Below are positions 64-33,978 of a DNA stretch of 36,734 nt, piece after piece (within the stretch, counting starts at the first letter, position 1; the number at the start of each line of letters is the position of its first letter). The notes beneath the pieces are model-generated. The model was not told the origin of the DNA. It saw only the letters and a program-made list of their open reading frames with translations, and ran no database searches. The stretch comes from Chloroflexota bacterium (GTDB taxonomy: Bacteria; Chloroflexota; Anaerolineae; Anaerolineales; Villigracilaceae): NCBI GenBank assembly GCA_016235425.1, contig JACRLC010000099.1, forward strand, positions 1-36,734, read 5' to 3'. A program made the translations under genes and the position numbers.

Positions 64-3000
64 TTATCTGAAGTTTTTTACCCAGAGTGTATCGCAAGAC
101 CTTTCAGTTTTTGGAAAAAACTTTTCTGGACAGCTATACGTGTATTGGTAGGAAGCCAGCTCGCTTTCGGCTGTGACATGTTGGAGCTGTGCTAATCTGC
201 CCGCTGCATCATACGTATAGGTCGAGTCTACGCCGTTGGGCCGCAAAATGGCCGCAAGCCGCCCGATCGGGTCGTATGTGTATTGCGTGGTCTTGCTCGA
301 GTCATTGACCTGGGTCAAACGATTGGCGGAATCATACGCGTAATTTACAGTTCTGCCGTCTGGATAGGTTAATTGCGTGCGGTTACCGACTGCATCATAG
401 GAGTAGCCTACACTGTCTGAAAACGGATCGGTAATGACAGCAGGCCGGTTGAGCTTGTCATATTCCCAGGTCGTCGCGCCCAATTCATCCGTCATATTGA
501 TGCGGCGCCCGCCCGCATCATAGGCAAAGAAAACGTCTGCCTGCGGATCAGGGTAGTCAATCACAGTGAGTTGGTTGCGGGCGTCATATCCATAATAGAT
601 CCAATTACCGTTCGGGTCGAGTGTCACAGTCTGATTTCCAACTGCATCGTAACCGCGTGCCCATAAGCTGCCGAGGGCATCTCTCTCATACATTAGGCGG
701 TTGAGGTCATCATAAACAAAATTCGTGATGTGACCATTGCCATCCTTGATCGTCAGGCGGTTGCCGTTCTCGTCGTATGTATATTCCGTGCGGATGTTGG
801 TTTCGTAGTTTGGTAGTTGAGCCATTGAGTAGTTTTCAATGACGGCAGTCAGGCGTCCGAGTGCGTCGTATTCGTAGCCGGTTGCAATGCCGTTGGCGTC
901 CAGCATGCTCGTCGTGCGGCCGGCGGCATCATACGTGTACTGCGTTGTATTACCGAGAGCATCCGTAACGGAGGCCTGTTGTCCAAGCAGGTTATATGTA
1001 AAAGATGTCGTTTTGCCAAGCGGGTCGGTGGCTGAGACCACTTGTCCTGCCGCGTCGTACGTGGTGGAACTTGTATTGCCCAGGGGGTCAATGACCACAA
1101 CGGGGCGATTCAGGGCATCGTAGGTGGTCGTGGCAGCAGAGCCTCTTGCATCCGTCATCGTCAAACGATTGCCCAACGCGTCGTACGCGAAGGAAGTCTC
1201 TCCGCCGATTGCATCAACCTGGCTCGTCAGGCGGCCAAGATTATCGTACTCGAAGGTAGCATCGTTTCCATTTGCGTCTGTGCGGGAGATCACCTGCCCC
1301 AGCGCATCGTATTCGGTATGAGTGACGTACCCAAGCGGGTCGGTCACGGCGGTCACACGGTCGAGAGCATCGTACGAAACACGCACCACGTTCCCCAACG
1401 CATCAGTGCGAGAGATCACCCGCCCGAGCGCATCGTATTCGGTGGAGGAGACGTTCCCCAGCGCATCGGTCACATTGGTTTGCCTGCCCGCGTCGTCATA
1501 CGCGTACGTGGTTGCTTTGCCGCGCGCGTCTTTCGTTTGGATAAGCCGTCCTGCCGCGTCGTAGAAGCTTTCTGTGACTCCGCCCAGCGGATCGGTCGTC
1601 TTGATCAATCGTCCCAGTGCGTCGTACTCGTAATGAGTTACATTATCAAGTGTATCGGTCACTGCCGTCAAATTACCGGCCGCATCATACGTGTTTTGTA
1701 TCGTCCCGCCGCCCGGCTGGGTTGCTGTGACGACGCGCTTCAAGTCATCGTAGGTGTAGCTTGTTGTCCTTCCAAGCGCGTCGGTTGTGCTCGCAACGGT
1801 GCCGTCGAGGTTGTAAATTGTACTTGTGGTATTGCCAAGCGCGTCGGTGGTGGAGATCAACCTGCCTGCATCATCGTATGTGTAGCTCGTCGCGCGGCCC
1901 AGCGCATCGGTCGAAGCAGCCAGGCGGCCTGCCTCATCATAAGTACCCGTCGTTTCGCTGCCGATGGGATCGGTGGTCTTAACCAGCCGCCCTTCCGCAT
2001 CGTATTCGTACGATGTAGTCCGCCCGAAAGTATCCGTGACGGAGGTCTGGCTGCCGCGCAAATCATAAACGTAGGCGGTGACGATATTCCACTGATTGGC
2101 ATCATTTTGTAGGCGGGCAGGATCGTAGTTCTGCGTGACGCGGGTCAGCCTTCCTGCCGCATCGTATTCATTATGGGATACACGTCCAAGCGGATCAGTG
2201 GAATCCACCAATCGTCCAAGATCGTCGTAGGAATACGTCCATGTATTGCCAAGCGAGTCGGTCATCGAAGTCCGCTGGCCGTGGGAATCATAAGTATGGG
2301 ACGTCGTCTTGCCCGACGGATCGGTGACCGTTTCAAGATAGCCTTCCGCCGTATACGTGTAAGTCGTCTCCCCGTTCAGCGCGTCGGTGACGCTTGTCAG
2401 CCGCGTCCCTTCATATCCGTACGTGGTCAGATGGCTAAGCGGGTCGATCACCGAGGTGGGGTTATTGAGCGCATCATACGTGATGTCGGTTCGGCCGCCC
2501 TCCGCATCCACCACGCGCGTCAGATTTGCACCGTTCGCGCTCCAGCCAAGCATAGTGACGCTTCCGTTCGTATCCGCGATCGTGGAGGGGCGCATGTTGA
2601 GATCATACGTTTTTGTTGTCTGTGCGCCATTCTGGTCTGTATCTTTGTTTCGGATATTCCGATGATCGTAATAGTCTGTGCGCGCATGTCCGAGCGCATC
2701 CGTGAGTGTGGTTGAGCCATTTGCATGATAGGTAAGCGAAACCACCAAGTCTCCGTCCCCGTTATATTGGCGGATTGCACGCGCGTCGGAGGTGTCGGAT
2801 TCGTACTCTGTGCGTTCGACTATTTTCCCGTCGGGATCGGTCACCCGGGTTAAGTGGTGCCAATCATCGTATGAATACGTCCAGGTTTCTGCTAATAGAT
2901 CTTGCGCAGAAGCAAGGTTGCCGTTTATATCGTAAGTGTAAGTGATCCCTCTCCCTGTATGATCTGTGATCGAAGCGATCCTGGTTTCGCCGCCGGAGTA

Positions 3001-4674
3001 TGCAAGGGCCAGGAACCGCTGTTCACCCTGGTCGCTTATCTTCGTGAGCCTGCCTTCCGCGTCGTACGTGTAAAGAAGTTTCTGGCCGTTGGGATCCGTG
3101 CGGGAGATCAGTTTGCCGCTGGTCAGGTCGAAGTCATATTCATTCTGCGCCTTATCCGTCAGGATAAAAGCAGACGCGCCCTGCGTAAGCGAAGCAAACA
3201 CGCCATTGTACGGCGTCAGGGTTGTTGAGCCTTCTTCCTGAAAAAAGTCGTACTGGTTTGCAGTGCTTCCCTTAAGTGTGACAGTCCTAATACCCGTTGT
3301 TGTGTCATAAGGGCCAAAAGTCAAATACAAATCATGGTTGTGCGTCCAGCCATATCCCAGGCTGGCGGAATAAAGGGAGGTGGCAAGCGATGAATAGGTG
3401 CGCTCGAAAGAGATTTCCCCTGCCGCACTTGGGATGGATATATCGGTTACAGCGTAATCGTATCCTCCCGTACGCGTGTTGATCGGTCCAGCAACATTGC
3501 CTTGCGTGCTTTCTGCGCAGGATATGTTGCAATCGCCATTGGAACTGTATATACCATCAACACCGGCCAATGATTCCACACGAAAATATTGAAGGTTTCT
3601 GCCCATTCCGGTCGCGCCGGTAAAGCCAAACCACACATTTGGATTGCCCTCAAAACGAGTGCTCACGAAATCTTCGGTATAAGTGAACCAGGTGGTTTCC
3701 CCGCCCTCGTTCAGCGACGACACAATGAGTTGGTGGGCTGAGGCGATCCACCGAAATCGAAATGTCCGTTCCTGTCCGTTCTCGAAGGAACTCGACGAGC
3801 TGACGAGGGGCAATGAACCGCCGTGGGTAACACTGCCGCTGCTTAAGAGCGCCACGTGATTGTCTGTCCCTGAGGAACCTGGAGCAGGATCGTAGTGATT
3901 GGTGTTTCGGTATGTATCGAATTCAACCGCTACAGCAGGGGAGATGCCATGATACCCCAAGCCGGCACCCTGTTCGCCCAATGCACTGGTTCCTCTCCTC
4001 TGCAAAACAAAAGCAATACCATCTGCGCTCCAGACCTCGCCCTGGCGGGAACCCAGATAAATATTAAATGCCATATCAAAGTCTTTGCTCAGATCAATTT
4101 GTTGCGCGGACCATGCAGAACCGCCCTCCCAATAGTTGTCGCTGGTTAATTTTATGGCGTCGGGTACCGCCGTTGAATCTGCATTTCCATTAAGAATCCA
4201 ATCCATTCCACCGGATGTAACGGATTGTGATGCGGCCCTCATAATGCCATCGGGCCGGGCTTCTAAATTATTTTCTGGCATTGCCGAAGGTACTGGTGTT
4301 AGTGGTATGGGGGTGGCTTGAGAGATGGGGGGGCTAATGATTTCAGGTTCGGTGGCAGATGGCTCAGCAGGTTGATCAACTTCTTGTGTTGGGCTTTCCG
4401 GTATTTGTACAGGTGCATTAGCAGATGACAGTTGCTCTGTTGGTCTTTCCCCCATTACGGGTTCCGGATGAATATATTCTGGCGGCACATAATTGTTCTG
4501 GCTACTGGGTGGCTCGGAAGGTTGAACAACCTCCGGCATTGGGCTTTCTGGTGTTTGTGTAGTTTGCGGTCCGCAACTCGATAAAACCAATGCGAGAAGC
4601 ACCAAAACATCCAGCAATTTCCGCATCGGAAAAAGCTTGATTGCCATAGAACGGTTACCATTTATGCCAAACAT
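64..4674 (-). CDS. Secreted lectin-domain YD-repeat (RHS-like) lipoprotein, truncated C-terminus
   Basis: The start at 4674 is chosen because GGAGG lies 7 nt upstream; an ATG two codons earlier sits too close to it. The N-terminus is a long basic lead, a hydrophobic stretch and a lipobox LSSC (Cys34), so the protein should be an exported lipoprotein. A Pro/Glu/Thr-rich linker follows to about residue 150. Residues ~153-370 look like a bacterial L-type lectin domain (VAVEFDTYRN, later DNHVALL). A DUF6531-like segment follows (GPINTRTGGYDYAVTD, ~390-470), then about 1000 residues of YD repeats (TYDAAGRL, EYDALGR). In this family YD repeats form a shell or cell-surface fibre. The usual RHS core end and variable toxin tip are missing: after SYQYTYS come 22 unrelated residues and a stop. 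It is probably a surface adhesin or a broken RHS gene. Confidence 0.9.
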   Translation of the reverse strand: MFGINGNRSMAIKLFPMRKLLDVLVLLALVLSSCGPQTTQTPESPMPEVVQPSEPPSSQNNYVPPEYIHPEPVMGERPTEQLSSANAPVQIPESPTQEVDQPAEPSATEPEIISPPISQATPIPLTPVPSAMPENNLEARPDGIMRAASQSVTSGGMDWILNGNADSTAVPDAIKLTSDNYWEGGSAWSAQQIDLSKDFDMAFNIYLGSRQGEVWSADGIAFVLQRRGTSALGEQGAGLGYHGISPAVAVEFDTYRNTNHYDPAPGSSGTDNHVALLSSGSVTHGGSLPLVSSSSSFENGQERTFRFRWIASAHQLIVSSLNEGGETTWFTYTEDFVSTRFEGNPNVWFGFTGATGMGRNLQYFRVESLAGVDGIYSSNGDCNISCAESTQGNVAGPINTRTGGYDYAVTDISIPSAAGEISFERTYSSLATSLYSASLGYGWTHNHDLYLTFGPYDTTTGIRTVTLKGSTANQYDFFQEEGSTTLTPYNGVFASLTQGASAFILTDKAQNEYDFDLTSGKLISRTDPNGQKLLYTYDAEGRLTKISDQGEQRFLALAYSGGETRIASITDHTGRGITYTYDINGNLASAQDLLAETWTYSYDDWHHLTRVTDPDGKIVERTEYESDTSDARAIRQYNGDGDLVVSLTYHANGSTTLTDALGHARTDYYDHRNIRNKDTDQNGAQTTKTYDLNMRPSTIADTNGSVTMLGWSANGANLTRVVDAEGGRTDITYDALNNPTSVIDPLSHLTTYGYEGTRLTSVTDALNGETTYTYTAEGYLETVTDPSGKTTSHTYDSHGQRTSMTDSLGNTWTYSYDDLGRLVDSTDPLGRVSHNEYDAAGRLTRVTQNYDPARLQNDANQWNIVTAYVYDLRGSQTSVTDTFGRTTSYEYDAEGRLVKTTDPIGSETTGTYDEAGRLAASTDALGRATSYTYDDAGRLISTTDALGNTTSTIYNLDGTVASTTDALGRTTSYTYDDLKRVVTATQPGGGTIQNTYDAAGNLTAVTDTLDNVTHYEYDALGRLIKTTDPLGGVTESFYDAAGRLIQTKDARGKATTYAYDDAGRQTNVTDALGNVSSTEYDALGRVISRTDALGNVVRVSYDALDRVTAVTDPLGYVTHTEYDALGQVISRTDANGNDATFEYDNLGRLTSQVDAIGGETSFAYDALGNRLTMTDARGSAATTTYDALNRPVVVIDPLGNTSSTTYDAAGQVVSATDPLGKTTSFTYNLLGQQASVTDALGNTTQYTYDAAGRTTSMLDANGIATGYEYDALGRLTAVIENYSMAQLPNYETNIRTEYTYDENGNRLTIKDGNGHITNFVYDDLNRLMYERDALGSLWARGYDAVGNQTVTLDPNGNWIYYGYDARNQLTVIDYPDPQADVFFAYDAGGRRINMTDELGATTWEYDKLNRPAVITDPFSDSVGYSYDAVGNRTQLTYPDGRTVNYAYDSANRLTQVNDSSKTTQYTYDPIGRLAAILRPNGVDSTYTYDAAGRLAQLQHVTAESELASYQYTYSCPEKFFPKTERSCDTLWVKNFR

Positions 4675-5009
4675 AATCATCCCTCCACGTGAACCATGAT
4701 GTTGAATTGTTTTCTTTTGGGGAGCCGCACTTCGTCCCCCTGGCTAAATACAAGAGTTTTTATTCCAATGATGACATTATGGAAAATTCCTTCATATTGG
4801 ACAAGTGACAAATGTCATATAAGCCTTACAGTTTCGATAAGACAGTATCAGCGAAAAGAATTTGGTCGCTTTGTAATTGCAGCACTTCATAGCTGTTTAT
4901 AACGGATTTTGCATACCATCTCGCAGGTTTCCTGGTAAACGCGGTTGCTTCATTCCAGCCTGCAGGAGTTCTGCGGTAGGACTGCACTTAAACGTGATCA
5001 GGCTCTTTG

Positions 5010-11936: not shown

Positions 11937-11988
11937 GGGAATGCAAAGGATGAATTAGGAAGGATGAAGGATAAATAAAAGACAATTC

Positions 11989-12110
11989 ATGTCGTTGCGA
12001 GACGGTGTTCTTCCGTCGAAGCAATCTCCGATTAAGCAGAGAATATTTCTCGATGAGATTCTCCTGTTTAACTGGGGGATTGCTTCGGGCTAACGCCCTC
12101 GCAACGACAT
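11989..12110. repeat. ~125-bp palindromic intergenic element, copy A
   Basis: It has perfect 13-bp terminal inverted repeats ATGTCGTTGCGAG / CTCGCAACGACAT. Inner inverted motifs CGAAGCAATCTCC and GGGGATTGCTTCGGGC allow a long two-armed hairpin. It carries no gene. It fills almost the whole gap between the permease stop and the P-type ATPase start. A second copy is at 15902-16029. The structure suggests a MITE or REP-like element moved by a transposase encoded elsewhere. Confidence 0.85.
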
Positions 12111-12118
12111 GGCTAAAA

Positions 12119-15886: not shown

Positions 15887-15901
15887 TGTAAGGTTAGTCT
15901 C

Positions 15902-16029
15902 ATGTCATTGCGAGGAGCGTTCGTTGCGACGAAGCAATCTCCCGTTTAATATCCAATTCTCATCGAGCGGCATTCACCATTTAATCGGGGATTGCTTCGG
16001 GCGGGAGAGCACCGCCCTCGCAACGACAT
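15902..16029. repeat. ~125-bp palindromic intergenic element, copy B
   Basis: This is the same element as at 11989-12110: ends ATGTCATTGCGAG / CTCGCAACGACAT (one mismatch) and inner motifs CGAAGCAATCTCCC and CGGGGATTGCTTCGGGC. The centre differs from copy A. It lies directly behind the KdpE-like gene, only 3 nt from its stop. Confidence 0.85.
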
Positions 16030-16032
16030 AGC

Positions 16033-25889: not shown

Positions 25890-26720
25890 TTATTCTTCGT
25901 TGATCTGGTTATACAAAGCCCGCAGGTTGCGCTGGTGCAGGGTCTGCGCCAGGCCGCCCAAATAAACCCGACTCTTGCCGCATTCCTCGATCCTGATCGA
26001 ATCCAAAAACTCATCCGCCGACTTGCGCCTGGCCGCACCCTTCACTGCCTTCTTGATACTTGTAAGGTAATTCAGGTTCTCTTTCACAGCCGCGTCGATC
26101 TCACCGCGCAGGATGATATCTCCGTGCCCCTGGATGATGTTTTCCAGACCCATGCGTCCCACACGCTTGATGGACGAGATCATATCATCCACATCGCCGT
26201 CCACAATGTAAGGCAGGGGCATAAAGGAATCGCCTGCAAACAGAACACGGTCTTCCTCCACCATCACCGCGATTCCGTCATCGCTGTGACCAAAGGCCGG
26301 GAAGATCGTCAGGTTCTTCTTGCCTACGCGCAGAGTCAACTCGCCGGAATCAAACGTCATGTGCGGCAGAACGATCTTCACCTGTCTCAGGTTTGCGTTT
26401 TGCTTGCGGGCTGATTCGAGCGAAGGCCGTCCGCGTTCGAGCAACAACTCGCGGCAACGCGCGTGTGCGATCACAGTGGCACCGGGGAAGAAACAATTGC
26501 CCCAGGAATGGTCGGCGTGGTAATGGGTGTTGATCACGTAACGGACCTGTACACCCAATTCATGCTCGATGAACTCGCGCATGCCCAGCGTCTCTTCGGG
26601 CAAAGCCAGGGTATCGATAACCACCGCCCATTGCGGCCCCACGATCACGCCCGCAGTGACTTGCGCGTAAACTTCACTTTGGAACCAAAATACATTTTCA
26701 GAAACACGTTCACGGTGCAT
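25890..26720 (-). CDS. Metallo-beta-lactamase-fold hydrolase
   Basis: A 276-aa soluble enzyme with the full binuclear metal set: THYHADH (His66, His68, Asp70, His71), FGHSDDG (His145), FAGDS (Asp164) and IQGHGD (His199). The layout resembles quinoprotein-relay or glyoxalase-II-like MBL proteins. There is no signal peptide, so it is unlikely to be a periplasmic beta-lactamase. The C-terminal ~60 residues are basic and helical. The start is ATG 26720 with GAGGG 6 nt upstream; the preceding in-frame GTG is too near the RBS. It is transcribed alone, divergent from the receiver-Roadblock-Y1 gene, with a dyad in its leader. Confidence 0.87.
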   Translation of the reverse strand: MHRERVSENVFWFQSEVYAQVTAGVIVGPQWAVVIDTLALPEETLGMREFIEHELGVQVRYVINTHYHADHSWGNCFFPGATVIAHARCRELLLERGRPSLESARKQNANLRQVKIVLPHMTFDSGELTLRVGKKNLTIFPAFGHSDDGIAVMVEEDRVLFAGDSFMPLPYIVDGDVDDMISSIKRVGRMGLENIIQGHGDIILRGEIDAAVKENLNYLTSIKKAVKGAARRKSADEFLDSIRIEECGKSRVYLGGLAQTLHQRNLRALYNQINEE

Positions 26721-26740
26721 CACTTACCCTCGATCATAGA

Positions 26741-26888: not shown

Positions 26889-26920
26889 TTGACTTGCCTC
26901 GGCTTATTATGCGTGATAAA
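26889..26920 (+). promoter_or_regulatory. Promoter candidate for the receiver-Roadblock-Y1 gene
   Basis: TTGACT (26889-26894) is a good -35 and GATAAA (26915-26920) a fair -10, but the spacing is 20 bp, longer than usual. If used, transcription would begin within a few bases of the start codon. With no SD before ATG 26930, this would make a leaderless mRNA. Confidence 0.3.
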
Positions 26921-26929
26921 CTTTAGTTG

Positions 26930-28564
26930 ATGACCGCAAATATTCTCGTGGTCACTTCTTCAACAAGTTTTGGGGAAGCCGTCCGTCGAACCATCGAAGA
27001 GACGGATGTTTACCGCGTCCATATCGTCAACAACAAAGCCTCAGCGGTAGTGCGTGCGGATGAATACGCCACCCCCCTTGCCCTCCTCGATATCTCCCTC
27101 GGCGAGGATTGGGTTCTTGAAATTGGCCAGGCATTACGCACCATACGCCCACAAATCAATCTTGTTGTTCTTTGCGGCAGTGGAGTTCCTCCCGCCCTCG
27201 ATGGCATTCGCCCCTGGGTTCTTGTCCGTAAACCGTTTCACGTGGCTGATCTTATGAACGCACTTAACCAACAACCCCCAAGCGCAGCAACTGCCGTCGC
27301 ATCTACAAATTTACCGTGGCTGAGCGATCCGGCCAAAGCCGCCCAACATCTTACACGTCTCACACTCGAATCCTCCGCGCAAGCCGCCCTCATCACGCAA
27401 AAGAACGACCTGTGGGCCTACGCCGGCGGACTCTCGCAAAGCGCGGCCAAGGAAGTGGCGCAAACCGTCACCCGCAACTGGGATGGGCAAAAAGGCTCCG
27501 ATCTTCTGCGCTTCATCCGCCTCGAAAGCACAAAAGCCGAGCACATGCTCTACGCCACCCGCCTCGCCGCAGACGTTGTGCTGGCCCTTGTCTTCGATGC
27601 AGAAACGCCCTTTAGCACCATCCGCTCGCAGGCCAACCAGCTCATCACCAACATCGGGAGCGAACGCCCCGATGTCCAAAAGTCACCGGCACCCCTGCCT
27701 CAGCCTTCCCTTGAATTTACCGAGGAACAATTGGATGAAGAGGACGACGTTGAGATTCCAGCCATCACAGACATTCTCACCAACATCCCAGCACCCAATC
27801 CTCCACCATCCGCTTCCACGCGGGACCTGAAAGAGGCCCAGCCTCAAGAGACATCTGACGCCGCCCTGGGTGTAACCCGCATTTCAGCGCCCCTTTCGGA
27901 TGCATCCGTTTTTACCCGCGAAGAATCCCCCTCCATCCCGCTGAACCACCTCGTTACTGTGGAACAGCCCAAAGGTCAGAAAGAGAACGCGCTTCCCCAG
28001 GCAATGCTGGACGAGATCGAAGTTACCGCGCCGTCCAAGTCACGCCGCAGGCCCGAGACGCCCGTCGTAAAACCTGCGCCCGGTGAAATGGATGTGACCC
28101 GCGCCAGCGCAACGACGGAAGCCGCGCGCAAAGTCACATTCGAGCCGACAACTGCCGGGCTGTATCATCTCACCTACGCGTGCCTGCTCGTGCCGCGCTT
28201 CTCGTCGCATTATCTGACGGGCGATCTGGCAGACCGGCTCTCGGAATGGCTTCCAAACATTTGCGTCGCCTTCGGCTGGCGGCTGGAATTTCTCGCGGTG
28301 AGGCCTGAGTATCTTCAATGGGTCGTGAACGTCCAGCCGAATACGTCGCCCGGTTATCTCATGCGAGTCATGCGCCAGCAGACCTCCGAAAAAATATTCA
28401 ACGATTTCGGGCGTTTGAAGAAAGAGAATCCCTCCGGCGATTTCTGGGCACCCGGCTACCTGATCATGGGCGGAACCCAGCCTCACCCGCCGCAACTGGT
28501 GCGCGACTACATCCGCCAGACACGCCAGCGGCAGGGACAGGAAGCGCTGAACCAGCGTCACTAA
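26930..28564 (+). CDS. Receiver + Roadblock/LC7 + degenerate IS200-type (Y1) transposase domain fusion
   Basis: A 544-aa protein with three domains. Residues ~3-115 are a receiver-like fold: the acceptor Asp is kept in ALLDISLGE and the Lys in VRKPF, but the acidic pair after beta 1 is lost (VVTSSTS). Residues ~128-245 look like Roadblock/LC7 (SSAQAALITQKNDLWAYAGG; VVLALVFDAETPFSTIR). A Pro/acidic linker runs ~248-405. Residues ~409-531 follow the TnpA_IS200 (Y1) pattern: GLYHLTYACLLVPRF, WLPNICVAFGWRLEFLAV, a PEYLQWVV where HUH enzymes read PDHVHLLV, then GDFWAPGYLIMGG and VRDYIRQTR with the Tyr kept. Both HUH histidines are replaced (Tyr, Gln), so DNA nicking is unlikely and the domain looks co-opted, perhaps for DNA hairpin binding. 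There is no SD. Confidence 0.8.
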   Translation: MTANILVVTSSTSFGEAVRRTIEETDVYRVHIVNNKASAVVRADEYATPLALLDISLGEDWVLEIGQALRTIRPQINLVVLCGSGVPPALDGIRPWVLVRKPFHVADLMNALNQQPPSAATAVASTNLPWLSDPAKAAQHLTRLTLESSAQAALITQKNDLWAYAGGLSQSAAKEVAQTVTRNWDGQKGSDLLRFIRLESTKAEHMLYATRLAADVVLALVFDAETPFSTIRSQANQLITNIGSERPDVQKSPAPLPQPSLEFTEEQLDEEDDVEIPAITDILTNIPAPNPPPSASTRDLKEAQPQETSDAALGVTRISAPLSDASVFTREESPSIPLNHLVTVEQPKGQKENALPQAMLDEIEVTAPSKSRRRPETPVVKPAPGEMDVTRASATTEAARKVTFEPTTAGLYHLTYACLLVPRFSSHYLTGDLADRLSEWLPNICVAFGWRLEFLAVRPEYLQWVVNVQPNTSPGYLMRVMRQQTSEKIFNDFGRLKKENPSGDFWAPGYLIMGGTQPHPPQLVRDYIRQTRQRQGQEALNQRH

Positions 28565-28579
28565 TCATCACCGCTCACA

Positions 28580-28615
28580 AGCGCAGAGCATCGCCACCCC
28601 TCGGCGCTCTGCGCT
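28580..28615 (+). terminator. Intrinsic terminator after the receiver-Roadblock-Y1 gene
   Basis: Perfect 10-bp arms AGCGCAGAGC (28580-28589) and GCTCTGCGCT (28606-28615) are followed by TTTTTATTTTG. It lies 16 nt past the stop codon, so polA has its own promoter. Confidence 0.85.
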
Positions 28616-28736
28616 TTTTATTTTGAAACATCAATGTTTTCTTCAGCAGTTGAACTGCCGAAGAAACAAACTGACAACCGACCAATGATAAATCCAAAGT
28701 CTGGAGACTTTGGATTCCAAAAAACTGGAAACCAAC

Positions 28737-31565
28737 ATGCCCCCCACCCTTTACCTCATTGACGGACACGCTCTTGCTTATCGCATGTACTTTGCCCTCA
28801 CGGCGGGAACTTCAAACCAGCGCTGGCAGACATCCAAAGGCGAATTCACCGCGGGAACCTACGGTTTCGCGCGCGAGTTGATTCGCATCCTCGAACAGGA
28901 AAAGCCGGAATATCTGGCGGTTGCCTTCGATACCGGCAAAACCTTTCGCGATGAAATCTTCCCCGCCTACAAAGCGACACGTGCCAAAATGCCCGAAGAT
29001 TTGCGCCCGCAGATCGAACGCATCCGCGAAATGGTGGACGCCTTCAACATCCCGCGTCTTGAAATGGAAGGCTACGAAGCCGATGACGTGTTAGGCTCGG
29101 TCGCAGGGATCGCCGCCGAAAAAGGACTCGGCGTCAAGATCATCACCGGCGACCGCGACCTGCTTCAACTGGTCAATGAGCGCACTGCGGTCTACCTCGC
29201 GGGCGACGACCAGATGTACATCACAGACCAGGACGTGATCAAAAAGCTGGGTGTGCGCCCCGATCAGGTGGTGGATTACAAGGCCATCGTCGGCGACAAA
29301 TCGGATAACATCCCCGGCGTGCCTGGCGTGGGCGAAAAGACTGCCATTTCGTTGCTCGAAAAGTTCGGCACACTGGACAACGTCTACGCACACATGGATG
29401 AGGTGGAAAACCGCTGGAAGAATAAACTTGAGCAGGGAAAAGAGTCGGCTTACCTTAGCTACAACCTTGCAAAAATCAAAACCGACCTGGACATCAAACT
29501 CGATCTCGAACACGCAAAGGTCGGCGAATTCGACCCGGCACCGCTCGAAACCATTTTCAGGGAACTCGAATTTCGCACACTCCTGCCCAAGGTCGGGCCG
29601 TTGAGCGGGAAAGTCCCGGCAGTTGAGTCCGCGCCAGCGACAGCCAAGCCGGAATCCCGCCGCGTTTCAGCAGGGAAAGCGGGACAGCAAATGTCGTTAT
29701 TCGTGAACGAGCCGCAGGTTGTCATCGAACCGCCCAAAATAAATTCAAACATCGAGGTGGTGATCGTTGATAACGAAGATAAACTCTCTGCCTTGGCCAA
29801 GGAACTTTCAAAAGCGAAGGTGATCTCGTTCGATACCGAGACAACCGCCACCGAAGAAATGCAGGCGGAACTCGTCGGCATCTCGCTCGCAGTCAAAGAA
29901 GGACAGGGCTATTACATTCCCATCGGTCACAAAACCGGCGCGAACCTGCCGTTGAAAAAAGTGATCGCCGCGCTCGAAAAACCTCTCACGGATCCAAAGA
30001 TCGGCAAGGTGGCGCACAATGCCAAATATGATTACATCATGATGGCGCGTCACGGGCTTGTCGTTTCGCCCATCACATTCGACACGATGATCGCTGAATT
30101 TGTCGTTGACCCATCCTCGCGCAACCTGGGTTTGAAGAACCTCGCGCAAGTCCGTCTCGGCGACGAAATGACCCACATCGAAGATCTGATCGGCAAGGGC
30201 AAGAAACAGATCAGCATGGCCGATGTCGTTTCCGCATCGGCAGCCGCCTACGCCGCCGCCGATGCGGAAACGACCCTGCGATTGATGTCCGTCATGCAGG
30301 CGGAAGTCAAACGCGTGAACGGCGAAAAATTGATGGCTGAAATCGAAATGCCGTTGATCTCGGTGCTGGCAGAGATGGAAATGACCGGCGTATTGCTCGA
30401 CCTGCCGTTCTTCGCGCAGTTGTCGCAGAAGCTCACCTCCCGCATGGCCGAGATCGAGAAACAAATTTACGAATCTATCGGGAAGACGTTCAACATCAAC
30501 TCGACTCAACAGCTCTCGGATATTCTCTTCAACCGCCTGCGCCTCGAACCGCCCGACAAAGGGCGCAAAACTGCCAGCGGACATTTCTCCACCTCCGCGG
30601 ATATTCTCGAAGCCCTGCGCGGCAAACATCCCGTTGTGGATATGGTTTTGGAGCACCGCGAATATTCAAAGCTCAAGTCCACCTACGTGGATGCACTGCC
30701 CGCCGCAGTGGATCCACAAACGGGACGCGTACACACGTCCTACAGCCAGACCGGCGCGGTGACGGGGCGTCTCTCCTCGTCCAACCCAAACCTGCAAAAC
30801 ATCCCCATCCGCACCGAGTTGGGACGCCGCGTCCGCAACGGGTTCATCGCGGACAAGGGCAACGTTCTGCTCTCGGTGGATTACTCACAGATCGAACTGC
30901 GGATCGTGGCGCACATGTCTGGGGATGAGGCGATGTTGGCGGCATTCCGCGCGGGTGAAGATATCCATGCCACTACAGCGGCGGCAGTTTACGGGGTCCA
31001 GAAAGAAGCGGTGACGAAAGAGATGCGCCGCCATGCAAAGGCGATCAACTTCGGTCTGATCTACGGCATGTCTACTTTCGGCCTGAAAAACACAACCGGC
31101 CTCACACTGGCCGAAGCCGAGAATTTCGTCAAAGCCTATTTCGAAAAGTTCCCCGGCGTGAAAAAATATCTCGATGGCACGCGCAAACTTGCCGCACAAC
31201 AGGGCTACGTCGAAACACTGCTTGGCCGCCGGCGATACTTCCCCGCGTTACAAGGCAGTTTGAACCAGGCCATGAAAAACCGCGAAGAACGTGAAGCCAT
31301 CAACTCGCCTGTGCAGGGAACCGCCGCGGACGTGATGAAACTCGCCATGTTGAAAATCCCGGATGCGCTCAAGAAAGCAAAGCTGAGCGGCAAGATGCTT
31401 TTGCAAGTGCATGATGAACTCGTGCTGGAATGTCCGCGCGCAGAAATGGAAAAGACCGCGCGCGTCGTTCAGGAAACCATGGCAAACGCCTACCCAATGA
31501 GCATCCCGCTTTCCACCGAAGCGCGCTGGGGCCAAAGCTGGGGCGAGATGCAGGTGTTGGAGTAA
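28737..31565 (+). CDS. polA: DNA polymerase I with active proofreading domain
   Basis: A 942-aa repair and replication polymerase. The start MPPTLYLIDGHALAYR at ATG 28737 is typical; an upstream TTG at 28710 adds nine residues unlike the family. The 5'-3' exonuclease covers ~1-290 (YEADDVLGS, ITGDRDLLQL, GDKSDNIPGVPGVGEKTA). The 3'-5' exonuclease (~335-520) keeps its acidic residues: SFDTETT, HNAKYDY and AYAAADAE. The polymerase domain has motif A (SVDYSQIELR), motif B (RRHAKAINFGLIYG) and motif C (QVHDELVLE). Many bacterial Pol I proteins have lost proofreading; this one should have it. It follows the terminator at 28615 and precedes a GC-rich repeat and the TPR gene. Confidence 0.97.
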   Translation: MPPTLYLIDGHALAYRMYFALTAGTSNQRWQTSKGEFTAGTYGFARELIRILEQEKPEYLAVAFDTGKTFRDEIFPAYKATRAKMPEDLRPQIERIREMVDAFNIPRLEMEGYEADDVLGSVAGIAAEKGLGVKIITGDRDLLQLVNERTAVYLAGDDQMYITDQDVIKKLGVRPDQVVDYKAIVGDKSDNIPGVPGVGEKTAISLLEKFGTLDNVYAHMDEVENRWKNKLEQGKESAYLSYNLAKIKTDLDIKLDLEHAKVGEFDPAPLETIFRELEFRTLLPKVGPLSGKVPAVESAPATAKPESRRVSAGKAGQQMSLFVNEPQVVIEPPKINSNIEVVIVDNEDKLSALAKELSKAKVISFDTETTATEEMQAELVGISLAVKEGQGYYIPIGHKTGANLPLKKVIAALEKPLTDPKIGKVAHNAKYDYIMMARHGLVVSPITFDTMIAEFVVDPSSRNLGLKNLAQVRLGDEMTHIEDLIGKGKKQISMADVVSASAAAYAAADAETTLRLMSVMQAEVKRVNGEKLMAEIEMPLISVLAEMEMTGVLLDLPFFAQLSQKLTSRMAEIEKQIYESIGKTFNINSTQQLSDILFNRLRLEPPDKGRKTASGHFSTSADILEALRGKHPVVDMVLEHREYSKLKSTYVDALPAAVDPQTGRVHTSYSQTGAVTGRLSSSNPNLQNIPIRTELGRRVRNGFIADKGNVLLSVDYSQIELRIVAHMSGDEAMLAAFRAGEDIHATTAAAVYGVQKEAVTKEMRRHAKAINFGLIYGMSTFGLKNTTGLTLAEAENFVKAYFEKFPGVKKYLDGTRKLAAQQGYVETLLGRRRYFPALQGSLNQAMKNREEREAINSPVQGTAADVMKLAMLKIPDALKKAKLSGKMLLQVHDELVLECPRAEMEKTARVVQETMANAYPMSIPLSTEARWGQSWGEMQVLE

Positions 31566-31668: not shown

Positions 31669-33978
31669 ATGCCCGGACGAGATGACGTTTTCCAAAAAGC
31701 AATGAACGACGGCCACTCGGCGGCCTGGGACCAGGAATGGGAAAAGGCCGCCGCCGCGTATCGCAAGGCCTTGCAGGAATTCCCCGACCACCCAAAGGCG
31801 CTCAATAGCCTTGGGCTGGCCCTCTACCAACTCGGCAGTTTTGACGAAGCATTGCAAATCTACGTTCATGTTGCCAAACTTTCACCGGACGATCCCATCC
31901 CCATGGAAAAAGTGGCGCAACTCTCCGAGCGCATCGGCAACCTGAAAACCGCAATCGACGCGGCCATGAAGGCGGGCGATCTGTTCCTCAACCAGCGCGA
32001 TGCCGATAAAGCCATCGAAAACTGGGTGCGCGTTACAAACCTGAATCCCGACCATGCCATTGCACATTCACGCCTGGCACAAGTCCATGAGAAGCTCGGC
32101 CACACACAACAGGCCATCACCGAATATCTTGCCATCGCAAGTTTATTCCAACGCGCAGGCAACGCGGAAAAAACAAAGAACCTCGTCGACAAAGCCCTGC
32201 AGCTCCTGCCGCAAAGCATGGAAGCCAAACAAGCGCAGACTTTATTGAATACCGGGCAACTCCTGCCCAAACCGATGCGCGGCAAAGGCGGGACCGGACC
32301 CATCCGCATGGCGCAGGTCAAACAGCTTCAACAACCCAAACTGGCCGCCTCAGGCCTGGACCCGATAGCTGAGGCGCGCCAAAAAGCATTGACCCAGCTG
32401 GCAGAGATCCTCTTCGATTACTCCGACGAAAGTCCCGCCGCCCAGCAGCGCCGCGGGCTGACCGCAATCGTCAAAGGCACAGGGCAACTCGCCATGCAAA
32501 ACAGCGAGCAATCGAAAGTGGTCATGCATCTCAGCATCGCCATTGACGCCCAGACCAAAGGCAAGGACTCACAAGCCGCCGAAGAACTGGAACGCGCCAG
32601 CGAGGCGGGCTTCAAACATCCATCCCTGTATTTCAATCTCGGCATGTTGCGCGCCAAAACCGAACGGTTGGAAAGCGCCTTGCGCTATCTTCAATATTCG
32701 ATCAAACACAACGAATACGCTCTCGGCTCCCGCCTGCTTCTGGGTGAGATCCAATTCAAAAAAGGCAAGATCAAAGAATCGGCGCTGGAATACCTTGAAG
32801 CGTTAAAACAAGCCGATTCGATGACGGTATCCGAAGAACAAGCCGATGAAGTGCGCCAGCTTTACGAGCCGCTGATCGAGGCCCACCAGCTTCAAAATGA
32901 CGAGGATGCCCTGCGCCGCTTGTGTGAAAACGTCAAAAGCCTGCTCATGCGGCCTGATTGGCGCGAACACCTGCACCGCACGCGCGAGCAAATGCCGAAA
33001 CAGGAAGGCGGCATGGTCATGCCGCTGGCCGAGGTCATTTTGCAGGCGCAATCCAGCTCCGTGATCGAGTCCGTAAATATGATCAACCAACTGGCGCGCT
33101 CGGGCAGCCTGCGCTCCGCAATGGACGAAGCCTTCGATGCCGTGCAACACGCCCCAACCTACCTGCCCCTGCACACCCTGATGGGCGATCTGCTCGTGCA
33201 GGAAGGCCACCAGCAGGAAGCAATTGTCAAATATGGAGTGGTTGCTCACGCATACAGCGTCCGCGGCGAAGTGGCCCAGGCCACCAAACTTTTGCGCCGC
33301 GTCATTCAACTCGCCCCAATGGACATGTCTGCCCGCACGCGCCTGATCGACCAGCTCGTGGCACGCGGCCACATGGACGAAGCCATCAACGAATACATCG
33401 AGCTGGCCGATATCTATTACCGCCTCGCCGAACTGGACATGGCACGCAAAACCTTCACCACCGCCCTGCGCGTGATCCAGCAAGGCAACGCCAGCCGCGA
33501 TTGGAATGTGCACATCCTCCAGCGCATGGCTGATATTGACCTGCAGCGCCTCAACTGGAAACAAGCCCTCCGCATCTTCGAGCAGATCCGCACCCTGCGC
33601 CCGGATGATGAAGGCGTCCGCAAACAACTGGTTGATTTGAACCTGCGCCTCGGACAGCAGGATCAAGCCATGAGCGAACTGGACAATTACCTTACCTATC
33701 TCGAAGGCAATAGTAAAACGGGGAACGCCGTCGCCTTCCTCGAGGACCTGGTCAAGGAACACGATAACCAGTTACTGCTCAAACGCGCCCTCGCCGAACA
33801 ACTTCATCGTTCGGGCCGCACACAGGAAGCCGTGTCCCAGTTGGATGCCCTCGGCGAAACGCTGATGGAGGCAGGCAGGAAAAAAGAAGCCCTGGAAGTG
33901 ATCAACCAGATCGTCCTGATGAACCCTCCCAACGTGGAAGATTACAGGCAGTTGCTCTTTCAGATGCAAAATAGTTAA
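31669..33978 (+). CDS. Large tetratricopeptide-repeat protein
   Basis: A 769-aa soluble protein made almost wholly of TPR-type helical pairs: early units AAAYRKALQEFPDHPKALNSLG, AIENWVRVTNLNPDHAIAHSRL and AITEYLAIASLFQRAGN, then further sets at ~300-370 and ~480-760 (ATKLLRRVIQLAPMDMSAR, ALRIFEQIRTLRPDDEG, ALEVINQIVLMNPPN). A basic linker near 200-230 (PKPMRGKGGTGPIR) divides the first and second blocks. There is no signal peptide or catalytic domain. TPR proteins act as scaffolds; the partner is unknown. It follows polA by 100 bp. The receiver-Roadblock-Y1 gene upstream has a similar GC-rich, acidic style, but no link is shown. Confidence 0.87.
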   Translation: MPGRDDVFQKAMNDGHSAAWDQEWEKAAAAYRKALQEFPDHPKALNSLGLALYQLGSFDEALQIYVHVAKLSPDDPIPMEKVAQLSERIGNLKTAIDAAMKAGDLFLNQRDADKAIENWVRVTNLNPDHAIAHSRLAQVHEKLGHTQQAITEYLAIASLFQRAGNAEKTKNLVDKALQLLPQSMEAKQAQTLLNTGQLLPKPMRGKGGTGPIRMAQVKQLQQPKLAASGLDPIAEARQKALTQLAEILFDYSDESPAAQQRRGLTAIVKGTGQLAMQNSEQSKVVMHLSIAIDAQTKGKDSQAAEELERASEAGFKHPSLYFNLGMLRAKTERLESALRYLQYSIKHNEYALGSRLLLGEIQFKKGKIKESALEYLEALKQADSMTVSEEQADEVRQLYEPLIEAHQLQNDEDALRRLCENVKSLLMRPDWREHLHRTREQMPKQEGGMVMPLAEVILQAQSSSVIESVNMINQLARSGSLRSAMDEAFDAVQHAPTYLPLHTLMGDLLVQEGHQQEAIVKYGVVAHAYSVRGEVAQATKLLRRVIQLAPMDMSARTRLIDQLVARGHMDEAINEYIELADIYYRLAELDMARKTFTTALRVIQQGNASRDWNVHILQRMADIDLQRLNWKQALRIFEQIRTLRPDDEGVRKQLVDLNLRLGQQDQAMSELDNYLTYLEGNSKTGNAVAFLEDLVKEHDNQLLLKRALAEQLHRSGRTQEAVSQLDALGETLMEAGRKKEALEVINQIVLMNPPNVEDYRQLLFQMQNS

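Follow-up and report, generated by a model that had tools for sequence, protein, structure and literature searches.

A Catalytically Dead Y1 Domain of Probable IS200-Type Origin in a Conserved Host Protein of the Chloroflexota

Introduction

Among the systems described so far, the protein reported here is closest to the TnpA transposases of the IS200/IS605 elements, such as those of IS608 and ISDra2, with which its C-terminal domain shares the fold, the order of the structural elements, the tyrosine in the last helix, and a sequence match above the Pfam cut-off. According to the cited parts of the literature, the metal ligand four residues after this tyrosine (Tyr+4) is Q131 in IS608 (PMC5934647), and the pattern Y---Q is the signature of the IS200/IS605 TnpA (PMC6006769). 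In contrast to these transposases, the protein family considered here has neither the HUH motif nor the glutamine ligand, is immobile, is fused to two signalling domains, and has a lower net charge. The TnpA-REP or RAYT proteins are likewise low-copy, housekeeping-like descendants of the Y1 family, as far as the cited part of PMC8266576 goes. The RAYTs, however, keep both the HUH motif and the tyrosine, carry a Y---NP signature, go together with dispersed REPs, and have a patchy distribution. One survey kept only those Y1 proteins that had both the HuH and the Y motifs and took the absence of a core motif as a sign of a non-functional protein; the dead-Y1 family would therefore be excluded from it, and a receiver or Roadblock fusion is not mentioned in the cited parts of that survey (PMC6006769).

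On the signalling side, the MglA-MglB-MglC-RomR module of Myxococcus also brings Roadblock proteins, a receiver protein, and a Ras-like GTPase together (PMC4316618 and PMC12719032, in the parts cited). In our case, by comparison, a receiver and a Roadblock-like domain lie in one chain with a transposase-derived domain, and no link to motility is known here. TldR proteins are derived from TnpB. They are RNA-guided, whereas the dead-Y1 protein almost certainly derives from TnpA. In the cited part of PMC13418256, TldR represents a sister case, in which an accessory protein of the same transposon family was turned into a dead regulator. For the receiver/Roadblock/Y1 architecture itself, we found no description in the open-access literature.

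Gene and Domain Organization

The window, by which we mean the whole stretch of 36,734 nt that was analyzed, comes from a Chloroflexota bacterium with a 5.0-Mb genome (G000), in which the three-domain gene is present as a single copy. The features used in the following sections are:

26930..28564, plus strand: gene of the receiver/Roadblock-like/dead-Y1 protein (ATG start, 544 aa)
26930..27283, plus strand: receiver-like domain, residues 1-118; acidic pair lost, D54 and K101 invariant
27314..27667, plus strand: Roadblock/LC7-like domain, residues 129-246, from the predicted model and structure matches
27668..28126, plus strand: linker, residues 247-399; long, acidic, poorly conserved, of low pLDDT
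28127..28549, plus strand: catalytically dead Y1 domain, almost certainly of IS200 type, residues 400-540, from sequence and structure matches
28304..28321, plus strand: P-E-Y-L-Q-W in place of the HUH motif, residues 459-464, from the alignment
28508..28510, plus strand: codon of Tyr527, the catalytic tyrosine position, from the alignment; T531 replaces the metal-ligand Gln (IS608 roles from the cited part of PMC5934647)
26894..26922, plus strand: sigma-70-type promoter TTGCCT-17-TAAACT with a TG extension, 7 nt before the ATG (motif in 51/53 loci)
28579..28624, plus strand: gene-polA hairpin, arms 28579-28589 and 28606-28616, then a T tract
28737..31565, plus strand: polA (DNA polymerase I), the conserved downstream neighbour
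25890..26723, minus strand: metallo-beta-lactamase-fold protein, the divergent upstream neighbour (21/55 loci)

The linker ranges from 120 to 203 aa in the family, is acidic, and is the fastest-evolving part of the protein. At the other end of the window, the minus strand encodes a 1538-aa protein (64-4680) with many repeats, which we take to be YD/RHS-like.

Y1 Domain and Its Lost Active Site

The first-pass annotation had read the C-terminal domain as an IS200-type Y1 domain, and both sequence and structure comparisons agree with this. The Pfam family Y1_Tnp matches residues 412-530 with 47.3 bits against a cut-off of 23 (E 2.7e-12), and the NCBIfam IS200/IS605 model gives 58.2 bits for the Y1 domain alone and 54.1 bits for the whole protein, the cut-off being 55. 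A PDB sequence search returned 2ec2 (1.2e-10) and 2fyx (5.8e-9), and all the matches below E 1e-6 were transposases of this kind. A profile built from family rows without any TnpA also matches 2ec2 (1.7e-11), as well as the TnpA of locus L113 with 98.4% probability. In an earlier model of the whole protein, the pLDDT of the Y1 domain was only near 50; the model built from a deeper alignment has a mean pLDDT of 92.6 and a pTM of 0.84. Because divergent rows and TnpAs went into this second model, TnpA sequences have in part shaped the fold that it shows. With this model, the best 29 Foldseek matches were all TnpA chains, and VIA gave Z 16.8 for 2ec2 (rmsd 1.5 over 108) and Z 14.2-16.8 for the TnpA entries, compared with Z 8.2 for the RAYT structure 4er8 and Z 7.9 for the first unrelated entry. 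We therefore have little doubt that the domain descends from an IS200-type transposase and lost catalysis. It has the TnpA fold but is not mobile, being single-copy, surrounded by conserved neighbours, and found family-wide.

The active site was compared in an alignment of 52 of the 55 sequences, which leaves out L046 (frameshifted) and L052 and L054 (partial). The former HUH site reads P-[ED]-Y-x-Q-W (P459-E-Y-L-Q-W464 in the window protein), with Y461 and Q463 invariant in 52/52 orthologues, and Y527 is invariant in the same 52 sequences, so that the loss of the histidines and the retention of the tyrosine, first noticed in the window protein, are traits of the whole aligned family. The residue at Tyr+4, the equivalent of IS608 Q131, is Thr in 51 of the 52. 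In other words, the third metal ligand has been lost too, a point absent from the earlier annotation. Tyr527 is followed by I-R-Q-T-R, and neither the Y---Q nor the Y---NP signature is found there.

When the divergent members are included (22 aligned rows), both histidines are kept in none, the first histidine position is Tyr or Phe in 20, the catalytic tyrosine position is Tyr in 12, Phe in eight, and Leu in two, and a Gln at Tyr+4 is found in four. It should be mentioned that the family Y1 profile detects no domain in L094, L101, and L102 at E < 1, so that their Y1 identity depends on the alignment; without these three, both histidines are kept in 0/19 rows, and the tyrosine position is Tyr in 12 and Phe in seven. 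By comparison, H-x-H is present in 12 of 13 TnpAs of the class (L108 has H-V-R), the tyrosine in all 13, and the Gln in 12. Since the site is dead across the 22 rows and the tyrosine has been exchanged in divergent members, the loss of catalysis looks old, and the tyrosine is dispensable outside the window's family. The invariance of Tyr527 in the 52 sequences could also mean that the protein is still an active nickase, which uses this residue with other metal ligands. However, both histidines and the Gln ligand are gone, and 10 of the 12 divergent members have Phe or Leu instead of the tyrosine and still keep the domain; we regard this explanation as very improbable.

Conservation and Distribution

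In one scan, 54 related loci were found, with 43-75% identity in the best segment; their records are titled as Chloroflexota, mostly as Anaerolineales or Chloroflexi, and the full-length members share one architecture. In a scan of 298 genomes of the class, the gene was present in all 14 genomes of the window's family and also in some other class genomes, counts that are lower bounds, because a broader profile adds the class genomes G009, G019, and G035. The scan with the broader profile matched 18 family genomes, and none was among the 20 misses listed (256 others being unlisted). One genome outside the class matches as well (E 6.5e-7). Among plasmids, 12 records matched, none of them covering 80% of the query, and each of the 10 listed was an IS200/IS605 tnpA. 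No match to the protein came from phages or viral contigs. The three-domain order recurs in other Chloroflexota, across the Anaerolineae, where divergent members have similar architectures. These divergent proteins range from 475 to 1256 aa in length and have kept all three kinds of domain (receiver, Roadblock-like, and Y1-like); in others, no Y1 domain can be recognised (L098, L099, and L103), or the Roadblock-like part alone is present (L104). The proteins of L090-L094 are 954-1256 aa long, with very long linkers and Y1-like domains of net charge 0 to -8, and L091-L094 lie directly before polA.

Invariant residues make up 59 of 144 positions in the Y1 domain and 43 of 127 in the middle domain. 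Summed over the 40 pairs with the lowest Y1 dS of 51 (38 pairs for the receiver and linker), dN/dS is 0.077 for the Y1 domain, 0.058 for the Roadblock domain, 0.117 for the receiver, and 0.205 for the linker. The most conserved domain is therefore the Y1 domain by invariant residues and the Roadblock domain by dN/dS. Together with the single copy, the presence in 14/14 family genomes, and the conserved position before polA (50/53 loci), the low Y1 dN/dS bears out the earlier proposal of a co-opted host gene: the catalytically dead Y1 is a conserved domain of a host protein under strong purifying selection. If the protein were a degenerating transposase joined to the other domains by accident, or an artefactually joined open reading frame, only the loss of the catalytic residues would be accounted for. 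Such a decaying pseudogene is ruled out by the 54 related loci, with the same architecture in the full-length ones, by the 59 invariant Y1 residues, and by the Y1 dN/dS, and we give it practically no chance.

In the tree, a single branch (98/96) separates the 22 dead Y1 rows from the 13 TnpAs, and the HUH-bearing TnpA of L113 adjoins the dead group; the long branches of L102, L101, L114, L090, L097, and L159 are placed unsurely. Judging from these sequences, the simplest reading is that the dead Y1 domains would all stem from one capture.

Receiver-Like and Middle Domains

In the predicted model, the N-terminal domain has a receiver fold (VIA Z 16.8 to 3f6p, rmsd 2.1 over 116). The receiver of the window protein itself stays below the Pfam cut-off, and matches to Response_reg, at E values of up to 1 (best 1.3e-7), are seen for 28 of the 32 family rows. 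The absence of the acidic pair, noted in the first pass, is real, with the qualification that D54, at the phospho-acceptor position, and K101 are kept and are invariant in the aligned family. Phosphorylation in the usual Mg-dependent way is unlikely. Two family genomes (L062 and L063) have receiver-less open reading frames, and the core of the protein would accordingly be Roadblock plus Y1. L062 keeps the promoter motif despite the loss of the receiver, which leaves a leader.

The Roadblock domain of MglB and MP1/p14 is known as a dimer-forming platform for GTPases. The middle domain of our protein has the element order of this fold, a-b-b-a-b-b-b-a, in the predicted model (pLDDT about 86), and Foldseek matched it to MglB (6izw, 1.4e-5), MP1/p14 (1sko, 2.7e-5), and Ragulator. 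The sequence support is marginal: Pfam Robl_LC7 reaches E 0.08, below the cut-off, in one of 32 family members and at best E 0.0083 in 2/30 rows of near and divergent members, with none in the window protein, and PDB profile matches to MglB lie at 0.07-0.12. Fuz_longin_3 was matched weakly in 5/32 family members, and the longin fold, a related one, is a less likely alternative. When the profile of the middle domain was set against the genome's own canonical Roadblock protein, no match resulted, and a search of a viral structure library gave none at or below 1e-3. Because the VIA list for the whole-protein model consists of receivers only, it has no bearing on the Roadblock assignment, either way. 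The fold match on the predicted model speaks for the earlier Roadblock/LC7-like assignment, and the middle domain very probably has a Roadblock fold.

Neighbourhood and Transcription

Of the 53 loci with 300 nt of DNA or more, 50 have the gene for DNA polymerase I, polA, downstream on the same strand, at a distance of 69-315 nt in 45 loci and 497-1328 nt in five. For the divergent members, polA is downstream in 10/16 loci, where the two genes either overlap slightly or are up to about 155 nt apart. Among 40 class genomes drawn for polA, a family domain lies upstream of it in four: both receiver and Roadblock in L141, Roadblock in L166, only a receiver in L137, and all three domains, 1.4 kb away, in L159. 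In this sample, five of the 40 regions are short (L136, L139, L149, L170, and L174; 275-1843 nt), and the polA start was not located in 14, including L140 (receivers only).

A sigma-70-type motif, TTG-N3, spacer 17, TG-[AT]-TA[AC]A[AC]T, is present in 51 of the 53 loci, with the spacer of 17 in all 51, and lies 6-10 nt before the ATG in 50. The motif was defined after inspection of the same sequences, elsewhere in which it occurs with about 0.0006 matches per 80 nt. A generic promoter scan of the window (at least 9/12 consensus letters) does not list the promoter at 26894-26922. Its distance from the ATG would imply a leaderless mRNA. A simple operon with polA in the family was rejected, because the gene is flanked by its own promoter and by a terminator-like hairpin.

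The constant neighbourhood (polA next in 50/53 family and 10/16 divergent loci) may suggest that the protein is an accessory factor of Pol I in repair or Okazaki-fragment processing, whose dead Y1 domain would hold single-stranded DNA or the polymerase. The main objections to this view are that the gene and polA look separately transcribed in the family, that polA is nearly universal (116/120) whereas a family domain precedes it in only 4/40 class genomes, and that REC-Roadblock versions without Y1 (L098 and L099) also precede polA. Such a role therefore appears improbable to us.

As to the other neighbours, a conserved protein of 187-196 aa lies upstream in 29/55 loci, and in many relatives it is encoded where the window has the metallo-beta-lactamase-fold protein; its L012 copy (just upstream of 6001) has no Pfam match at E 0.01. 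A 769-aa TPR protein (31669-33978) is encoded after polA in the window and is often next after polA in relatives.

Hairpin between the Gene and polA

An exact 7-bp stem, CGCAGAG/CTCTGCG, lies between the gene and polA in 39 of the 53 loci. In 34 of these 39 loci, the window not among them, TATAAT lies within the loop or adjoins it, and a T-rich tail follows in 37. The next pair outwards from the stem shows compensatory change, being G-C in 24 loci, A-T in 13, C-G in one, and G-T in one. In L019 and L053, a different hairpin occupies the place of the terminator and TATAAT is kept. The generic terminator scan of the window lists the 3' part of the hairpin, with two sites found against 3.4 expected in shuffles. 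Because L019 and L053 swapped the hairpin yet kept TATAAT, we read the structure first of all as an intrinsic terminator that overlaps with the promoter of polA. A terminator would not require such constancy of the stem sequence.

The hairpin is also the best candidate ligand of the dead Y1 domain. As a hairpin-binding regulator, the protein would bind one folded single-stranded hairpin, of DNA or nascent RNA, most likely the one before polA, and would control itself and polA, with the receiver and Roadblock domains as a gate. Several observations agree with this idea. In 654 kb of family loci, 36 copies of the stem lie in the gene-polA gap and one elsewhere, namely in the enlarged gap of L035; the exact TATAAT-loop pattern has one copy each in 10 of 61 family genomes (G000 lacks that loop); the stem is retained with an altered loop in the window, L028, and L045; the residues at the former active site are invariant; and a conserved adjacent hairpin is what would be expected of an autoregulator. 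The REP-associated TnpA genes, too, are flanked by their hairpins, according to the cited part of PMC6006769. On the contrary, a terminator plus a polA promoter would suffice to explain the T-rich tail and TATAAT without any protein, the hairpin has been exchanged in L019 and L053, and it was not found in L041, L047, L048, or the scanned divergent loci, which keep family domains. The lowered charge of the Y1 domain, described below, also counts against such a regulator, and on balance we consider it rather unlikely, if less so than a Pol I factor.

Dispersed Repeats and Y1 Charge

The window also contains the dispersed palindromic repeat ATTGCGAG...GAAGCAATC (11987-12113 and 15900-16032), with 113 pattern matches in G000, and binding of the window's hairpin repeats had been proposed for the Y1 domain. 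This repeat occurs in 101/298 class genomes: in 12 of 14 family genomes, in 3 of the other 17 in which the family was matched, and in 86 of the 267 with no such match; it is absent from G164 and G192, which keep the gene. The hairpin linked to the gene is single-copy, and the presence of the dispersed repeat, the one family examined, does not track that of the gene. Averaged over 13 TnpAs of the class, the net charge of the Y1 domain is +6.8; the mean is +2.8 for the family (10 rows) and -3.1 for the divergent members (12 rows). Over the 52 family sequences, it is +2.4, which is mildly basic. The lowered charge and the distribution of the repeat argue against a general DNA-hairpin role, and we rejected binding of this dispersed repeat as the main function, because it is distributed independently of the gene. 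Nevertheless, the mildly basic Y1 domain of the family and its invariant positions at the former active site also fit a nucleic-acid ligand.

A GTPase-Linked Adaptor?

An MglA-like GTPase, for which the first-pass annotation had suggested looking in the genome, is encoded in all of the 21 family genomes, the window's own included, with 85-95% identity. Its gene is unlinked to the three-domain gene and lies beside that of a DUF4388/PATAN protein (L203, 1342-2783); MglA-type GTPases near PATAN proteins have been described (PMC4316618, in the part cited). The genome also encodes one strong canonical Roadblock protein, and this Pfam family is over the cut-off in 21/21 family genomes. A partner is therefore available, and binding to it is a putative step.

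Because of the lowered Y1 charge and a repeat that is independent of the gene, we favour a dimeric, GTPase-linked signalling adaptor with a non-catalytic, TnpA-derived binding module, a role that we put at about even odds; hairpin autoregulation is its main rival. In the proposed adaptor, the gene would be transcribed from its own promoter, in the family usually with a terminator-like hairpin before polA. The Roadblock domain would dimerise and dock a small GTPase, for which the MglA-like protein of the genome is a candidate; we regard the chances of such docking as evenly balanced. The receiver may contribute an input or an interaction surface, and the dead Y1 domain, on its long acidic tether, would act as a non-catalytic module for recognising a single partner, which is more probably a protein than DNA hairpins in general. 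We put an output mainly through protein binding at about even odds, and an output through nucleic-acid binding is somewhat less likely. Finally, it is improbable, though still worth considering, that the dead TnpA is the output of a GTPase/receiver-coupled regulator that reads the gene-polA hairpin and ties a small-GTPase signal to the expression of polA; if true, this would be a TnpA-derived counterpart of the nuclease-dead TnpB regulators.

Conclusions

The domesticated Y1 transposases described so far (RAYTs) retain their active site, whereas the present protein has lost that site and preserved the fold. Surveys that discard HUH-less homologues as non-functional would miss such cases. The protein is open to experiment, because it offers invariant positions at the former active site, a candidate ligand nearby, and a candidate GTPase partner. 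These observations show that exaptation can turn the TnpA fold into a non-catalytic module, and they join descendants of mobile elements to Roadblock/GTPase and receiver signalling. In the bacterial family of the window, the Y1 fold is under strong selection, with a decayed form of it elsewhere in the class.
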